Part shown: one piece after another, positions 4,307-41,300 of the stretch
Position numbering within the stretch: the stretch's first letter is position 1
Layout of the letters: each line of letters opens with the position of its first letter
NCBI RefSeq assembly: GCF_014205215.1
Contig: NZ_JACHNC010000001.1
Location: 2,175,001 to 2,239,000 of the forward strand
DNA from: Actinoplanes lobatus
Lineage (GTDB): Bacteria > Actinomycetota > Actinomycetes > Mycobacteriales > Micromonosporaceae
DNA length: 64,000 nucleotides
Direction: 5' to 3'
The notes under the pieces: generated by a model
The model's database searches: none
What the model saw: the letters and a program-made list of their open reading frames with translations, nothing else
Told to the model about the DNA's origin: nothing
Program-made: the position numbers and the translations under genes

Positions 4307-5116
4307 ATGAAGCCTGGGCTCCCCAAGCTGATCGCCACGGATCTGGACGGCACCCTGGTCCGCAGTGACAACACCGTCTCGGCGTACACGCACGAGGTCC
4401 TCGACCGGGTCCGCGCCGCCGGCATCCGGATCGTCGCCGCCACCGGCCGCGGCCCCCGCCTCACCTCGCTCACCCGCAACGACATCCGGGTCGCCGACTT
4501 CCTGGTGCTCGCCCAGGGCGGCTGGGTGCTCGACCTGGAGGACTCCCGCTACCTGCGGCAGGCCCGCCTACCCGGCCCGGCGCTCGGCCGGGTGCTCGGC
4601 GCGCTGGAGTCGGTGGCCGGGCCGCTGTCGGTGATGTTCGAGGCACTGGAGCACGACGAGTCCCCGCTCTGGGGCGACTACGACCCGACCTGGCGCTTCC
4701 CGGTGACCGTGGAGGACCGGCCACGCGCCGAGTGCCTCGACGCCGAGGTGATCAAGGCATTCGCCCGGTCGTTCGAGCTGGGCGTCGACGAGTTGCTCGC
4801 GATGGCCCACCGGGTGGTGCCGCCGGCCCTGGCGACGGTCACCCAGGCCGGCCTCGACTACGTGGAGATCTGCCCGCCCTCGGTGGACAAGGGCACCGGC
4901 CTGTCGGTGGTCGCCGAGTCGATCGGCGTCGACCCGTCGGACGTGCTGGTCTTCGGCGACATGCCCAACGACCTGCCGATGTTCGCCTGGGCCGGCTGGG
5001 GACGGGTGGCGGTCGCCAATGCACACCCGTCGTTGCTCGCGGTGGCCGACGATGTGACCCTCACCAATGACGAGGACGGCGTGGCGCACTATCTGGACCG
5101 GCTATTGTCCAGGTGA
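4307..5116 (+). CDS. HAD-superfamily (Cof-type) phosphatase
   Basis: A 269-residue haloacid dehalogenase-like hydrolase of the IIB/Cof group. Members dephosphorylate small phosphorylated metabolites. Motif I is DLDGTLV with the nucleophilic and acid/base aspartates. The lysine motif is in VDKGTGLS and motif IV is FGDMPNDLPMF. The large cap domain lies between about residues 85 and 185. A GGAGG lies about 6 bases before the ATG. The stop overlaps the start of a paralogous phosphatase, giving TGATG, so the two genes are translationally coupled. Confidence 0.9.
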   Translation: MKPGLPKLIATDLDGTLVRSDNTVSAYTHEVLDRVRAAGIRIVAATGRGPRLTSLTRNDIRVADFLVLAQGGWVLDLEDSRYLRQARLPGPALGRVLGALESVAGPLSVMFEALEHDESPLWGDYDPTWRFPVTVEDRPRAECLDAEVIKAFARSFELGVDELLAMAHRVVPPALATVTQAGLDYVEICPPSVDKGTGLSVVAESIGVDPSDVLVFGDMPNDLPMFAWAGWGRVAVANAHPSLLAVADDVTLTNDEDGVAHYLDRLLSR

Positions 5117-5913
5117 TGGCAGACTTCCGGCTCGTCGCCACCGACATCGACGGCACCCTGATCACCAGCGACCGCAGCCTGTCCCCCGGCACCCGGGAGG
5201 TGCTGGAGCGCATCCCGGTCCCGGTGGTCCTGGTCACCGGCCGCCCGTTGCGCTGGCTCAACCAGCTCAACGACCAGTTGTCGGCACCGCTGCCCGCGGT
5301 CTGCGCGAACGGCGCGGTCATCTACGACCCGGACACCGACGAGGTGCTGCGTGCCGATCCGCTGCCCGGCGACCTGCTGATCGACGTCGTGAAGCGCCTG
5401 CGCGACACGGTTCCGGACGTGTCCCTGGCCGTCGAGATCGAGGACGGCCGCGCCTTCCTGCACGAGGACACGTGGACCATCCGCTGGGAGCACGACGACC
5501 GGGTCCGGGTGATCGCCTCCCCGGAGGAGCTGACCGCGGCCCCCGCCGTGAAGCTGCTGGCCCGCTCCGCCACCGCCGACCCCGACGACTTCCTGGAGCT
5601 GGTCAGCCGCACCCTGGGCGACCGGGCCGAGGCGACCCGGTCGTCGTCGTCGGCGCTCGTCGAGATCTCCGCGGCCGGCGTCACCAAGGCCGCCGGGCTG
5701 GCCTGGCTCTGTGAGAGGCACGGCGTCACCGCTGACCAGGTCGTCGCCTTCGGCGACATGCCCAACGACATTCCGCTGCTGAGCTGGGCGGGCCGGGGCG
5801 TCGCGGTGGGCAACGCGCATCCCGCGCTGCGCGCGATCGCCGACGACGTCACCGGCACCAACGACGAGGACGGCGTCGCGCGCTACCTGCAAAAACTCTT
5901 CAAGCTTTGCTAG
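5116..5913 (+). CDS. HAD-superfamily (Cof-type) phosphatase, paralogue of the preceding gene
   Basis: A 265-residue phosphatase with DIDGTLI (motif I), VTKAAGL (lysine motif) and FGDMPNDIPLL (motif IV). Its C-terminal motif (TNDEDGVARYL) is nearly the same as in the upstream gene (TNDEDGVAHYL), so this looks like a tandem duplication. GTG 5113 is also possible; ATG 5116 makes the common TGATG overlap. The last codons and the TAG stop lie at the edge of a dispersed repeat element. The final KLC residues may therefore be supplied by inserted DNA rather than by the original gene. Confidence 0.9.
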   Translation: MADFRLVATDIDGTLITSDRSLSPGTREVLERIPVPVVLVTGRPLRWLNQLNDQLSAPLPAVCANGAVIYDPDTDEVLRADPLPGDLLIDVVKRLRDTVPDVSLAVEIEDGRAFLHEDTWTIRWEHDDRVRVIASPEELTAAPAVKLLARSATADPDDFLELVSRTLGDRAEATRSSSSALVEISAAGVTKAAGLAWLCERHGVTADQVVAFGDMPNDIPLLSWAGRGVAVGNAHPALRAIADDVTGTNDEDGVARYLQKLFKLC

Positions 5914-6101
5914 CTTGGCTCCGCTTCGCTCCGCGGCAAAACGCTGGGCTAGCTTTGCTCCGCTTCGCTCCGCGGCAAAACGCCTTGTAACCGGTGTCGA
6001 GGCAGGTGATCTCCCGCCGCCAGCAAACCCCGCTGGCGTCGGGAGATCACTTGCCTCGACACCGGCGGCGTTTTGCGGGAGTGGTGAGTGCACCGCCGTC
6101 C
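5909..6101. repeat. Dispersed stem-loop element, copy 1 (two 39-base direct repeats plus a long hairpin)
   Basis: Two direct repeats with a 39-base period begin at 5909 and 5948 (core CTCCGCTTCGCTCCGCGGC). A hairpin follows with arms 5991-6024 and 6032-6065 (32 of 34 pairs Watson-Crick, one G-T) and a 7-base loop, AAACCCC. GCAAAACGCC and its complement flank the hairpin as an outer arm. A closely related copy lies at 34849-35039 with compensatory base changes. The element fills most of the gene-free stretch 5914-6313. I see no coding sequence in the remaining 6102-6313. Confidence 0.85.
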
Positions 6102-6313
6102 TGCTCAGCGTGATTGCTCTGTGGCTGGCGCGTTCTGCCGCTCCCGCGGGCGGGAGCCGCGCGGCGAGGGTGCGTGGGCAGTGGCTTGCGAGAGGAACCC
6201 AGCGCTCACGCCCGGAACGCGCGGCATGGTCTGGAGTCGCACGGGGGCCGCGTCGAACCGGCGGGACGATCCGAATTCGGCGGAACGGGCGGCCCCGTAC
6301 GATAAAAGGGGTT

Positions 6314-16722: not shown

Positions 16723-16925
16723 CACGCCCTCTGGCCACCACTCGCGGACAGGTGACACGCTCCCCGCCACCACTCACGGACGGCTGACGCACCTTCCGCC
16801 ACCACTCGCGGATAAGTGACACGCTCCCCGCCACCACTCACGGGCGGCTGACGCACCTTCCGCCACCACTCACGGGCGGCTGACGCACCTTCCGCCACCA
16901 CTCGCGGGCAGCTGACGCGGCTTCT
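16707..16925. repeat. 32-base tandem repeat array extending from the moaD 3' end
   Basis: About 6.5 degenerate units (core CCGCCACCACTCGCGGGC then GGCTGACGC). The TGA in each unit falls at 16720, 16753, 16785, 16817, 16849, 16881 and 16913, a spacing of 33 then 32. The first unit is the coding end and stop codon of moaD itself (encoding PPFAGG). There are no unique spacers, so this is not a CRISPR array. It fills the left half of the gene-free stretch 16723-17200. Confidence 0.85.
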
Positions 16926-16959
16926 CGCCGCGCTCTCGCGCTCCCGGTTAGCCCGAGGG

Positions 16960-17969: not shown

Positions 17970-19679
17970 GTGCTGTTCATCGCGATGGTCCTGGTGATCG
18001 TCGGTCTGATCCACTTCTACCTGTGGAAGAGGCTGGTCCGTGATCCACTGCGGCCCGGTCCGGCCCGCCGCGCCGGGACGGCTCTGGCGGTCCTGCTCTT
18101 CGTGCTGTTCCCGGTGACGATGGGCGGGGTGCGGGCCGGCCACCTCACGTGGCTGGCCTGGCCCGGCTATCTGTGGATCGCCGTGATGTTCTACCTGCTG
18201 ATCACGCTGCTCGTGCTGGAGATCCCCCGGCTGCTGGCGCTGCGGTTGTGGGCGCGTACCCCCGGAGAAGGCAGCGACCGTGCGTCGCACGCTCCCGGGA
18301 CCGCCGCCGCTCCGGGCAGCCCGGCAGCCGAACCCCTTCCCACCGCCGAGCCGGCACTGAACGGCTCGGCAAACGGGCACGCCAGCGCGCCGACAGCGAG
18401 CGAGCGCCGCGGTGAGCCGGCGCTGAGCAGCGCGGCGAGCGGGCACGGCAGCGAGTCGCTCGGTGGCGGTGAGGCGGCACTGAGCGGCAGTGGGGCGGTG
18501 ACGCTGGCCGCGGGTGGAGCCGCGGCCGTCGACACGGTCGACGAGGCCGGCGCCGCCGGTGAGAGCGGCGGCGCAAGCCGGCAGACAGCAGACGACGACG
18601 CGGCGGGACACGGGGACGCGGGCCGGGAGCCGGCAGACGGCGACGCGGCGGGACACGGGGACGCGGGCCGGGAGCCGACAGACGACGACGCGGCGGGACA
18701 CGGGGGCGCAAGCCGGCAGACAGCAGACGGCGGTCCGGCGGGACACGGGGGCGCAAGCCGGCAGACAGCAGACGGCGGTCCGGCAGGGCACGGGGGCGCG
18801 GGCCGGGAGCCGGCAGACGGCGACGCGGCGGGACACGGAGGTGGGGGTCAGGGGCCGGGAATGGACCGGCGGCTGCTCCTGGCCCGGGGGACGGCGATCT
18901 TCGCCGGGCTCACCGCGGCGAGCATCACCGGCTACGGCGTGAAGACCGCGACCGGGGCGCCGCAGATCGACCGCGTCCAGCTGCGGATCGCCAAGCTGCC
19001 ACGGTCGATGGACGGAACACGGCTGGCCGTGGTCTCCGACATCCACATCGGGCCGCTCACGGGGGTGGAGCACGCACGGCGCATCACCCGGGTGATCAAC
19101 TCGGTGAACGCGGACCTGGTGTGCGTGGTCGGCGACCTGGTCGACGGCAGTGTGGCCGAGCTGGGCCGGTTCGCGGCGCCGCTGGGTGGGATCGAGTCGC
19201 GGCACGGGGCGTTCTTCGTGACCGGGAACCACGAGTACTACTCGGGTGCCGAGGAGTGGGTCGAGGAGGTGGCCCGGCTCGGGATCCGGCCGCTGCGCAA
19301 CGAGCGGGTCGAGATCAACGGACTGGATCTGGCCGGTGTGAACGATCTCACCGGTGAGGAGCAGGGCGACGGCCCGGACTTCGCCCGCGCGCTGGGCGAC
19401 CGGGACACCACCCGGCCGGTGGTGCTGATGGCCCACCAGCCGGTGGCCGCCAAGGAGGCGGCGCCCTACGGGGTGGATCTCCAGGTCTCCGGGCACACGC
19501 ACGGCGGCCAGATGGCCCCGTTCAACATGCTCGTGAAATTGCAGCAGCCGGTAGTCTCCGGCTTCGGGAAGGTGGACGGCGTGCCGGTGTATGTGACCAA
19601 CGGCGCGGGTTTCTGGGGTCCTCCGGTGCGGGTGGGCGCGCCCCCGCAGGTCACGGTCATCGAATTGCGTGTGGCGTAA
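17970..19679 (+). CDS. Membrane metallophosphoesterase with a repeat-expanded linker
   Basis: A 569-residue protein. Three hydrophobic segments occupy about residues 1-90. A low-complexity linker runs to about 290. A further anchor (RRLLLARGTAIFAGLTAAS) precedes a calcineurin-like phosphoesterase domain of about 250 residues. Metal ligands are in DIHIGPL, GDLVDG, GNHEYYSG and GHTHGGQ, so the enzyme should be active on a phospho-ester outside or at the membrane. The linker holds six near-identical 15-residue repeats (GHGDAGREPADGDAA type). GGGAGGG precedes the GTG start; TTG 17967 is an alternative. Confidence 0.85.
   Translation: MLFIAMVLVIVGLIHFYLWKRLVRDPLRPGPARRAGTALAVLLFVLFPVTMGGVRAGHLTWLAWPGYLWIAVMFYLLITLLVLEIPRLLALRLWARTPGEGSDRASHAPGTAAAPGSPAAEPLPTAEPALNGSANGHASAPTASERRGEPALSSAASGHGSESLGGGEAALSGSGAVTLAAGGAAAVDTVDEAGAAGESGGASRQTADDDAAGHGDAGREPADGDAAGHGDAGREPTDDDAAGHGGASRQTADGGPAGHGGASRQTADGGPAGHGGAGREPADGDAAGHGGGGQGPGMDRRLLLARGTAIFAGLTAASITGYGVKTATGAPQIDRVQLRIAKLPRSMDGTRLAVVSDIHIGPLTGVEHARRITRVINSVNADLVCVVGDLVDGSVAELGRFAAPLGGIESRHGAFFVTGNHEYYSGAEEWVEEVARLGIRPLRNERVEINGLDLAGVNDLTGEEQGDGPDFARALGDRDTTRPVVLMAHQPVAAKEAAPYGVDLQVSGHTHGGQMAPFNMLVKLQQPVVSGFGKVDGVPVYVTNGAGFWGPPVRVGAPPQVTVIELRVA
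18570..18845. repeat. 45-base in-frame tandem repeat in the metallophosphoesterase linker
   Basis: Six units of 45 bases encode two alternating 15-residue variants, one with GASRQTAD and one with DAGREPADGD, each ending AAGH or PAGH. The near-identity at DNA level points to recent expansion. The frame is kept. Confidence 0.9.
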
Positions 19680-34480: not shown

Positions 34481-34843
34481 ATGCATATGACCTGTCCCAA
34501 GTGTCACGGCGAGATGCGGGTCTACGAGCGCAGCGGCGTCACGATCGACCAGTGCACCGAGTGCCGCGGAATCTTCCTGGACCGTGGCGAGCTCGAGAAG
34601 CTCTTCGCGGCCGAAGCCACCTACAACAACCGGCCCGGCACCGGAGCGCCGGTTCCCCCGCCGCCCCCGCCGCCGGCCCACCACCAGCCGGGTTACGCGC
34701 CGCCTCCGCCGCAGCCCGCCTACGGCGCGCCGGCCGCCCACTACCCGCCCGCCGCGCCGATGTACGGGCACCGGGGCCACTACCGGCGCGCCCACCACGG
34801 CCACTACCGCCGGCGCGGCTTCTTGCACGACCTCTTCGACTGA
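34481..34843 (+). CDS. zf-TFIIB zinc-ribbon protein with a His/Pro/Tyr-rich tail
   Basis: A protein of about 120 residues. The first 50 form a TFIIB-type zinc ribbon (MTCPKCHGEM, then QCTECRGIFLDRGELEKLF). The remainder is a low-complexity tail with a poly-Pro run and repeated GHYRRAHHGHYRRRG near the end. Such proteins are common in bacteria, with unknown function. An ATG at 34454 overlaps the previous stop and would add nine residues; ATG 34481 gives the usual family start. The second dispersed stem-loop element begins 5 bases after its stop. Confidence 0.8.
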   Translation: MHMTCPKCHGEMRVYERSGVTIDQCTECRGIFLDRGELEKLFAAEATYNNRPGTGAPVPPPPPPPAHHQPGYAPPPPQPAYGAPAAHYPPAAPMYGHRGHYRRAHHGHYRRRGFLHDLFD

Positions 34844-34848
34844 GCTGG

Positions 34849-35039
34849 GCTAGCTTTGCTGCGCTTCGCTCCGCGGCAAAACGCTGGGCTAGCTTTGCTG
34901 CGCTTCGCTCCGCGGCAAAACGCCTTGTAACCGGTGTCGAGGCAGGCGATTTCCCGCCGCAGCACACCCCGCTGCGTCGGCAAATCGCTTGCCTCGACAC
35001 CGGCGGCGTTTTGCGGGGACGTTGAGTGCACCGCCGTCC
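34849..35039. repeat. Dispersed stem-loop element, copy 2
   Basis: The layout is the same as copy 1. Two 39-base direct repeats start at 34849 and 34888. A hairpin follows, with arms 34931-34963 and 34971-35003, loop ACACCCC and the outer GCAAAACGCC arms. Relative to copy 1, T-A became C-G (34947/34987) and C-G became T-A (34951/34983). One C-G pair near the apex is missing from both arms. The gene-free spacer holding this element runs from 34844 to 35114. Confidence 0.85.
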
Positions 35040-35114
35040 AGCTTGGGGTGACCGCTCCGCGGCTGGACGGGTATTGGCGTGCCTCGCTGTGCGGGTTGTG
35101 CCACGGTGAGGGTT

Positions 35115-38391: not shown

Positions 38392-41300
38392 GTGGACCAA
38401 CGGGAGTGGGACTACGGCACCCGCATGTCGCGCAGTCGGCGCGCTGCGGGGTCTTGGCCCACCCGGGAACCGGAGATCGCGGAGCCGGAGCCCCGTTGGG
38501 CCTCTCTGACCGACACCGGCAGCATGGCTCCCAGCGACGAGGCACTGACCTGGCAGCAGCGCGCCGACGACTGGGCGCAGCAGGCCGAGATCGAGCCCTA
38601 CCAGGGTGGCGGCGGCCAGGCCGTGGAGCCGGCCAACCGCTGGTCCTCCGAGGTGACCTCCACCGGGCGGCCGACCTTCCCGGCCGACGGCGTCGGCTGG
38701 CGCACCGAGACCGCCGAGTGGCGGGCCACCGGGGCGCGCTGGCGGCAGACCACCGAGTGGCGGTCGTCCACCGGGTCGCACGTGTGGCGTTCCACCACCG
38801 AGAGCTGGCAGGACGAGGAGGAGCAGCGGGCCGCCGCGGAGCGGGAGAAACCCTCCATACCCGGCACGGCGTGGCCCACCCCCGAGTTGGAGGCCGAGAC
38901 GCCGTCCTGGCGCCGGAGCGACCCCGACACGTCCTCGTCCTGGCGGCGGAGCGATCCGGACACGTCGTCGTCCTGGCGGCGCACCGACGGCCCCGCCGTG
39001 ACCAGCCCGGTCGAGCAGACCTGGTCGAAGAGCAACCCGTCGTGGCAGCAGCCGTCGGCACAGCAGCCGTCGACTCAGACGCCGAGCTGGCAGCAGCCGC
39101 AACAGCCGCAGACGCCGAGCTGGCAGCAGCCCTCCGCCGCGGCACCGTCGTGGCAGCAGCCGCAGCAGCCGCAGCAGACGCAGCAGACGCCGTCCTGGCA
39201 GCAGCCGTCCACGCAGACCCCGTCCTGGAAGGAACCCCAGCAGACCCCGTCCTGGCAGCAGCCCTCCGCCCAGCTGCCGTCCCGCCGACGGGAGACGGAG
39301 ACCGGGGCCCCGTCCTGGAACCGTTCCGACAACCCGCCGCCGGGGGAGAACACCACCGGCATACCCCGCTGGGAGCGGACCGAGGCGCCCGGCTGGCAGC
39401 GTTCGGCCGCCGAGGACGCGCGTCACCTGGTCCGTGAGGACGACCGGGCGGCGTGGCGCCGCGAGGCGGACTACACCGAGCGGCCCACCCGGGTCGGCCG
39501 CCGCCGTGCCGCCGAGAGCGGCGGCGCCCCGGCCGGTGGCACCGGCTGGACGAGCGGTGCCGACACCGACAACTGGGCCGGCCACACCGACACCGGCAGC
39601 ATCCCCGTCGTCTCCGACCAGGCGCTCTCCCCGGACGCGACCACCTGGGGCGCCCGGTCCGCCCCGCCGTCGCGCCGTGAACGCGGGCGGTATGCCGAAC
39701 CCCCGCCGCCACCGCCGGAGCAGCCGCCGGCCCAGCGTGGCCAGCCGGAGCCCCGGCCGGGCAAGCCGCGCTACAACGCCAACCCGACGAACTGGCGCGA
39801 GGACACCGCCTCCTGGGACGCGGAGCAGGACACCAGCAACTGGACCCGGGATCCGGACACCGGCCAGTGGAGCCGTGCGGAGGACGACCCACGGGTCCTC
39901 GCCTGGCGGGCCGAGGCGGCTCGTCGCGAGTCGACGAAGCCGGACGAGCCGGGCGGTGACGGCGGGCGTCGCCCGCGGCGTGCGGAACCGGTCGGTGGGG
40001 TGCCCGGCGGGCCGCTGCCGAGCAGCTCCGTCCCCGGCCCCTCGGAGACCGGTGCGACCTGGCCGACGAGCGCCATGCCCGGCAGCCGTCCACGGAGCGC
40101 CCTGCCCGGGCCGATAAGCCCGGTCGACGACACTCAGGCGGGCCGGCGGCGGCGCGCCGAGGAGCAGACGTACCCCACCGGCAGTGCGGGCCGCCGGCGG
40201 GCGCCCGAGCCGCCCATGGCCGAGCCGATCGGTCCGGCGGCGCGGCGGGCCCCGCAGGAGCCCCGGCGTGAACCCGACGACTATCCACCGCCCGGTGGCC
40301 GGCCGGGTCCGCGGCCGCCGCAGTGGTCGGATCCCGGTGGACAGGCGCCGCGCCGGTCCGCGTACCGGGACGAGCCCTACGGGGGCGGCCGGCGTGAACT
40401 CCCGGCCGGCAGCTCGGGGCCGTCCTACCCACAGCCGGGGCCGGGTTATCCACAGCGCTCGGAGCCGTCGTACCCGCAGCAGTCCGGGCCGTCCTGGTCC
40501 GAGCCGTCGCGCCCGGAGCCCTCACGCCCGGAGCAGCCGTCCTGGTCCGAGCCGTCGCGCCCGGAGCCCTCGCGCCCGGACCAGCCGTCCTGGTCCGACC
40601 CGTCGTGGTCGGTGCAGGAGCAGCCGCAGCGCGGCCTTCCGCCGCGCGGCTCAGCGCCGCAGCAACGGCCCTACGGCACCCCGGCGGGCGCGCTTCCGGC
40701 CGGGCCGTCCGCCCCGGAGCAGCCCACCTACGGGGGTACGCCACGCGAGCTGCCGCCCGGCCGTTCCGGGTACGGCAGCCCGGCCGCCGAGTCGACGTCG
40801 AGCGGGCTGTCCTGGCTCGAGCAGGAACGTCAGCGGCTCCAGGAACCCCAGGGCCCGGCGTACGGCGGTGCCGGCGGCCCGTCCTGGCTGGACCAGGAAC
40901 GGCAGCAGCGGTCACCCAGCGCCCCGACCTCCAGCGGCCCGTCCTGGCTGGACCAGGAACGCCAGCAGCGATCAGCCAGCGCCCCGACCTCCAGCGGCCC
41001 CGCCTGGCTGGACCAGGAACGCCAGCAGCGGTCACCCAGCGCCCCGACCTCCAGCGGCCCCGCCTGGCTGGAGCAGGAACGGCAGCGGCCGGCCCAGCAG
41101 GGACCGACCTACGGCAGCGCCCGCGCCCTGCCGGCCGGCAGTGACGCCGGGTCACGCTGGACCGATCCCGCCGGGACCGGCGGCCCCCGGGCGCTGCCCA
41201 CCGGAGGCGGCGCCTCGTCCTGGTCGGAGCAGCAGAAGCCGGCGTACGGCGACGGCGACCTGTCCGGTCGCTGGCCGGACCCGCTGGCGGACCAGTCCGG

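Follow-up and report, generated by a model that had tools for sequence, protein, structure and literature searches.

Results

The Two Copies in the Window

How paired bases come to change together without a harmful intermediate is an old question, and the element described here offers a natural test of how the arms of a hairpin are kept matched. In the stretch of DNA analysed (64 kb, hereafter the window), two copies of a stem-loop had been predicted to differ in their stems while keeping their pairing. Reading the sequence confirmed that both copies and their differences are real, and every base named in the original prediction was correct: positions 6007/6049 are T-A in copy 1 and the corresponding 34947/34987 are C-G in copy 2, 6011/6045 are C-G and 34951/34983 are T-A, and one C-G pair near the apex is absent from both arms of copy 2. 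The 39-base direct repeats are a leader unit repeated in tandem, at 39-base spacing, in both copies (CTAG at 5910 and 5949, and at 34850 and 34889). Two differences had been missed, namely a change in a single arm (G at 6043, C at 34981, giving a C.C mismatch with 34953) and the apex loop, which is AAACCCC in copy 1 and ACACCCC in copy 2. The features are listed below, where R1 is a covariance model built from 37 copies (122 positions, 46 pairs).

5910..5948, + strand: first leader unit, copy 1 (sequence)
5949..5975, + strand: second leader unit CTAGCTTTGCTCCGCTTCGCTCCGCGG, copy 1, with a small stem 5960-5963/5972-5975 (sequence)
5957-6078: core, copy 1
5976..5984, + strand: outer stem, 5' arm, copy 1, partner 6067-6075 (model R1)
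5985..5990, + strand: TTGTAA bulge, unpaired, copy 1 (fold, alignment)
5991..6024, + strand: main hairpin, 5' arm, copy 1, 33 pairs, conserved mismatch position 6017 (fold, model)
6025..6031, + strand: apex loop AAACCCC, copy 1, the commonest loop in the family
6032..6065, + strand: main hairpin, 3' arm, copy 1, mismatch partner 6039 (fold, model)
6067..6075, + strand: outer stem, 3' arm, copy 1 (model R1)
6079..6128, + strand: 3' tail, copy 1, common to other copies of its own and the sister genome (BLAST extent)
34850..34915, + strand: two leader units, copy 2, 39 bases apart, the second reaching the outer stem (sequence)
34897..35016, + strand: core, copy 2, comprising leader end, outer stem and main hairpin (model R1, 123.3 bits)
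35017..35066, + strand: 3' tail, copy 2 (repeat D7)

Both copies folded far better as RNA than 200 shuffles each (z = -10.7 for copy 1 and -8.7 for copy 2), and the opposite strand of copy 1 also folded better than its shuffles (z -7.5). When the covariance model was run on the 64-kb window (E up to 0.01), it returned these two copies with their own opposite-strand echoes and no other match. Copy 1 lies between convergent genes, encoding a HAD-type hydrolase and a bacterial proteasome activator (ORF list, Pfam), and the upstream hydrolase gene (5113-5913, Pfam PF08282) stops at the TAG at 5911-5913 of the first leader unit. The leader units of copy 2 sit closely behind the upstream gene's own TGA (34841-34843); the product of that gene, read directly, has a CPKC...CTEC pattern, and the next gene, on the same strand, is of the nucleotidyltransferase type. 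The window also contains an imperfect tandem array at 16734-16951 with a 32-base unit (GCCACCACTC..) in about six units, a tandem array of a 45-base unit at 18521-18880, and 48-60-base and shorter repeats at 39022-39281 and 40473-41089, which perhaps encode low-complexity protein.

A Dispersed Family in Actinoplanes

BLAST with copy 1 against the window's genome gave 62 matches, many of them palindrome echoes or fragments. The covariance model found 32 strong copies (at least 83 bits) and 5 weak, non-overlapping ones (31-53 bits) in that genome, the other 30 of its 67 rows being opposite-strand echoes; the pair in the window is thus not a chance likeness. The model search of the genome and its relatives, which had been proposed along with the original prediction, revealed a dispersed family of which both window copies are members. 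When 200 genomes of the bacterial family were sampled with stricter filters, at which weak matches are lost, 31 matched, comprising 29 Actinoplanes genomes (the window's own included) and two weak matches in one other genus. Among the genomes listed, 29 of 36 Actinoplanes genomes carried copies and 7 did not, and a further 149 matchless genomes stand outside that list. By BLAST, 19 of 40 genomes matched, again with the window's own included; all 19 are among the 24 genomes of the genus, and none of the 16 from other families matched. At the locus of the other genus with the weak hits (L115:1430-1700), GCTCCGCTTCGCTCCGC lies ahead of a different, near-perfect hairpin of about 29 pairs by eye.

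The element consists of a hairpin region of about 120 bases plus a leader, with a 33-pair main hairpin whose base and loop are fixed and whose arms are free in sequence. Its consensus runs from the leader CTGAGCTAGCTG through GCTCCGCTTCGCTCCGCGG, the outer stem, CGCC-TTGTAA-CCGGTG, the free arms with the apex GC-AAACCCC-GC, to CACCGG-C-GGCG. The second leader unit CTAGCTTTGCTCCGCTTCGCTCCGCGG is among the best-conserved parts of the family, and extra leader units stand ahead of 24 of 158 copies. Around the collected cores, the information content of the flanking sequence climbs steeply 12 bases ahead of the core and stays low from base two past the outer stem onwards; the 3' tail, which varies by lineage, has low information in the genus-wide flanks. 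The strong copies (32) of the window's chromosome lie at 0.2-5.2 and 9.4-9.9 Mb, with none at 5.2-9.4 Mb of 10.37 Mb. Fragments with leader and/or tail only occur at 9696043-9696136, 1036831-1036908 and 1121498-1121561 of the chromosome, and may be what hairpin deletions left behind. The literature searched, which had most subscription journals outside its reach, contained no description of the element.

Covariation of the Paired Bases

The prediction that sequence varies while pairing is kept now extends to 92 copies from relatives and to 44 distinct copies of two sister genomes. In the alignment of 37 rows, which was made by sequence, both sides change in 28 of the 46 pairs (167 cells, as compared with 45.7 in shuffles). 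The 92 copies, from 91 loci of relatives (part of those collected), showed double-sided change in 37 of 46 pairs (631 cells versus 174.5 in shuffles; 16 to 20 pairs in a control with slid partners), and the 44 distinct rows of the two sister genomes by themselves in 25 of 46 (141 cells versus 30.1); these two sets were fitted to the model and are therefore biased towards it, and kinship among rows inflates the counts. In the relatives, 8 of the 9 outer-stem pairs change on both sides, and one free-arm pair taken as an example is A-U in 41, U-A in 41, G-C in 7, C-G in 2 and unpaired in 1 of the 92 copies. The copies are many, yet they covary, the reverse of the pattern that had been held to count against the original prediction.

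Paired Changes in the Arms and Possible Exchange among Copies

We examined a young subfamily of 42 copies among 53 aligned rows. Counted per pair, its distinct departures comprised 9 double Watson-Crick states and 2 paired deletions, together with 13 one-sided mismatch, 4 G-U and 2 half-deletion states. Four double states each occur in one young copy. Three of them recur in other copies from the pair of sister genomes, so that exchange could have supplied them; the fourth, an outer-stem change from C-G to A-T in L295, is seen in no other copy aligned from these genomes.

In eleven full-length, same-orientation sister pairs, one Watson-Crick pair had been replaced by another through change on both sides 12 times, and a whole pair had been gained or lost 4 times (once with ambiguous alignment); one-sided changes numbered 15 and half-indels 2. 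Five of the 15 one-sided changes fall in the small leader stem, 6 in the defect pairs 50, 51 and 58, and 4 elsewhere. In the free arms and outer stem, double changes exceed single ones by 12 to 4, which favours coupled change of the arms there; exchange among copies and strong selection may also contribute. Mean core identity was 0.843 for copies of the same genome (868 pairs), 0.785 for the same locus in different genomes (104 pairs) and 0.760 for neither (1671 sampled pairs). Since copies within a genome are more alike than copies at the same locus, homogenisation or re-insertion appears to outweigh descent.

One explanation of these data dispenses with any process between the arms: whole hairpins would be exchanged between dispersed copies, and rare classical compensatory mutation would make the new types. 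The greater likeness within genomes argues for it, as do the recurrence of paired variants across many copies and the three private double states known from elsewhere in the two genomes. The L295 change without a donor among the other aligned copies speaks against it, as does the loss of one base pair, on both arms, from 14 of the 42 young copies, perhaps in a single event. We rate this explanation as rather less likely than not.

Routine copying of DNA from arm to arm may rewrite the arms, in which case covariation would arise largely without selection on RNA. The coupled changes are of the kind expected, whereas persistent mismatches, such as C.T below the upper stem (114 of 153 distinct cores) and A.C at one pair (70 of 147), speak against frequent copying, because copying should erase them. 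An approximate search for loop inversion flagged 18 of the 158 cores, and the non-standard rows shown were forward loops or shortened or diverged copies. We regard this process as possible and rather doubtful. If it did operate, the family would show in nature that covariation need not prove selection on an RNA structure, and its copies would record template switching in a bacterium.

Turnover, Placement and the Search for a Mobiliser

Forty-five genomes had the copy 1 locus, which was fetched for 30 of them, with both neighbours inside the fetched stretch in 28; by the model, the element was present only in the window's genome. For copy 2, among 30 fetched, only the window's genome and the sister genome carried the element. 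Two additional model hits in the fetched loci, scoring 24 and 28 bits, fall outside the gaps. The host gene of copy 1 ends in QKLFKLC with a TAG from the element, and its sister counterpart ends in RTLFNL. At L069 the difference between the genomes starts exactly at CTGAGC, and the last codons of the host gene differ. For the 19 of 32 copies that could be compared with the sister genome, 12 were shared, 2 were in opposite orientation, 3 were absent and 2 had lost the hairpin through deletion or decay. Inspection by eye, confined to L069, L071 and copy 1 of the window, showed no evident target-site duplication, and the host bases differed. In the gaps of L212 and L287, the sister genome carries other repeated blocks with AGCCAGCC motifs.

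Placement was assessed in a collection of 158 higher-scoring fetched copies (32 from the window's genome, the rest from 34 others), with neighbours predicted by a simple gene caller that had learned from ten genes of the window, rather than taken from an annotation. Both neighbours were called for 152 copies: 108 lie between convergent genes, 31 between genes running in the same direction along the element, 7 between genes running in the same direction against it, and 6 between divergent genes. After merging of linked loci, 63 of 96 were convergent. The baseline, from 364 kb of the window's genome only, was 58 convergent gaps of 306 (19%), with 192 same-direction and 56 divergent. Of 142 upstream genes that share the strand of the element, 58 have their stop codon within the leader and 9 within the core (67 of 142 in total), and in roughly half of the copies the leader adjoins or provides the stop codon of the preceding gene. 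This suggests that an element, as it spreads, can provide a gene's 3' end together with its stop codon. Copies sharing an upstream gene family formed 25 groups; 24 span different genomes, and the remaining group (L047) consists of two tandem copies in a single genome.

The original prediction had raised a REP-type element spread by transposition. The placement, with convergent gaps and a supplied stop codon, fits a REP-type element; for transposition, a REP-associated transposase was sought through the Y1 family (PF01797), and no link to the repeats was found. Five of 10 element-bearing genomes gave no Y1 match, and 12 fetched Y1 loci (of 19 matches) contained no convincing element; the hits there numbered three, at 14-17 bits and E 0.06-0.3. 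A Y1 transposase was accordingly dropped as the mover. The Y1 matches of the window's genome lie at 6.5-8.0 Mb. No match indicating a mobile-element origin was found among plasmids or phages, and none for the pattern in viral contigs; nor did the search, which covered Y1, plasmids and phages, reveal the decayed end of a known insertion sequence.

These data bear on whether the element is a selfish, non-autonomous mobile hairpin (REP/HUH or MITE-like) that a transposase reads as single-stranded DNA, its position reflecting tolerance and serving no host function. Its dispersal, its presence or absence and its opposite orientations between sister genomes would follow, and the fixed leader, bulge, loop and mismatches resemble marks for protein recognition. 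The Y1 results, the L069 junction and the 24 groups that tie copies behind one gene family across genomes all weigh against this, and we consider it unlikely.

Wobble Pairs and the Transcribed Strand

In 153 distinct cores, 6311 of 6847 paired cells were Watson-Crick, 131 were G-U and 224 were A-C; setting aside the small stem of the leader and five defect pairs left 29 G-U and 89 A-C. Since an RNA formed on one strand should tolerate G-U above A-C, this is a poor match to one-strand RNA. Where the original prediction had proposed selection on a structure or a copying process, a two-stranded structure (cruciform or two-way RNA) or copying fits, and its one-strand form fits poorly. We also considered that two-way transcription forbids wobble, which predicts a difference by gene context, and G-U by context did not confirm this: G-U made up 0.68% of cells in same-direction and 0.41% in convergent contexts, A-C exceeding G-U in both, and the few copies with both genes running against the element had 5 G-U and 4 A-C, opposite to the two-strand prediction. 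Among double-changed cells, 375 of 899 were of the transition type and 524 were not; these cells are not independent and, as the states look saturated, the transition share was not decisive as a test of mechanism.

The strong covariation, the strong fold and the 31 same-direction gaps along the element as compared with 7 antisense would suit an ordinary structured RNA (an mRNA 3'-end stabiliser or small RNA) selected on one transcribed strand through compensatory mutations, which is nevertheless improbable given the rarity of G-U even where both genes run along the element (7 versus 18 A-C), the mostly convergent placement, the frequent (non-independent) non-transition double changes, and the absence of any Rfam match at gathering score in the window. 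Eight permissive-threshold Rfam hits around copy 1, mostly to microRNA and small-RNA models, were all below gathering score and were judged to be chance.

Discussion

To the reading that we prefer we give an even chance: the element is a REP-like, dispersed 3'-end element of Actinoplanes that blocks transcription in both directions, and its arms are kept alike through copying from one arm to the other, exchange among copies and selection. The element probably acts as a two-way block, judging from the convergent placement, the strand-symmetric pairing and the contact with stop codons; such a block would account for both the convergent placement and the rarity of wobble. The hairpin would serve as a terminator or RNA-end hairpin usable from either strand. 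A GC-rich hairpin, as in intrinsic terminators, is present, and TTTT occurs in the outer stem of many copies and is replaced in others. Terminator-like sites numbered 1 and 0 in the two copy regions, not above shuffles, and no canonical T-run follows the hairpin. Any termination at the window copies would thus be T-poor or factor-dependent; T-poor termination occurs in actinobacteria. As for the arms, one may be copied onto the other by template switching within the inverted repeat, so that pairs would change together, while whole hairpins may be exchanged between copies and selection may remove those that lose the hairpin. The element would spread as a unit with a fixed leader end and a ragged tail, moved by an enzyme or by recombination. 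Against this preferred reading, convergent gaps may simply tolerate insertions and, when everything in the 11 sister pairs is counted, one-sided changes match double ones. The persistent mismatches, the G-U counts by gene context, the recurrence of three of the four private double states, the missing T-run and the failure to find a mobilising enzyme also count against it.

With dozens of similar young copies and a sister genome, the family displays pairs changed or deleted on both sides and, in its free arms, few intermediates with wobble; it could separate compensatory mutation from copying between arms and from exchange between copies.

Integron attC sites are long, imperfect hairpins behind genes, in which structure is kept despite sequence change and mismatches are fixed, and they form cassette arrays. 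The Actinoplanes hairpin is likewise long, imperfect and placed behind genes, with structure kept and mismatches fixed, whereas its copies are mostly single rather than arrayed as cassettes. Bidirectional intrinsic terminators are hairpins between convergent genes, readable from both strands. The Actinoplanes hairpin can also be read from both strands in convergent gaps; in contrast to such terminators, the window copies have no T-run, and the hairpin belongs to a dispersed homologous family with a fixed leader.

REP palindromes of the GTAG and CGTC families are hairpins scattered behind genes, chiefly where the flanking genes converge or run in one direction; the ends of GTAG types often supply the stop codon TAG, and roles in termination and mRNA have been proposed (PMC3733652). 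They are 20-40 bases long, carry a GTAG or CGTC tag and have frequent G-T pairs, and the GTAG types occur with RAYT transposases (PMC3733652). The Actinoplanes element resembles REPs in its placement behind genes (108 of 152 convergent) and its supply of stop codons (67 of 142 in leader or core). It differs in size, with 122 model positions and 46 pairs; in the foot of its consensus, CGCC-TTGTAA-CCGG and CCGG-C-GGCG, which has no GTAG or CGTC; in its scarce G-U pairs (131 of 6847 cells); and in having no RAYT/Y1 transposase link that we could find.

At template-switching or quasipalindrome hot spots, the arms of inverted repeats are corrected to each other, and compensatory changes arise in one event (PMC8794818, PMC7202029). 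In RNA genes such as rRNA, 61.0% of instantaneous compensatory changes were of the transition type, and loop inversion is one sign of template switching (PMC8794818); among the double-changed cells of the Actinoplanes family, which are not independent and look saturated, the share is 375 of 899. Compared with the template-switched RNA genes described there, the Actinoplanes family is dispersed, its arms take all four pairs and no clear loop inversion is apparent; coupled arm changes are nonetheless what that account leads one to expect for inverted repeats such as the Actinoplanes hairpin (PMC8794818).
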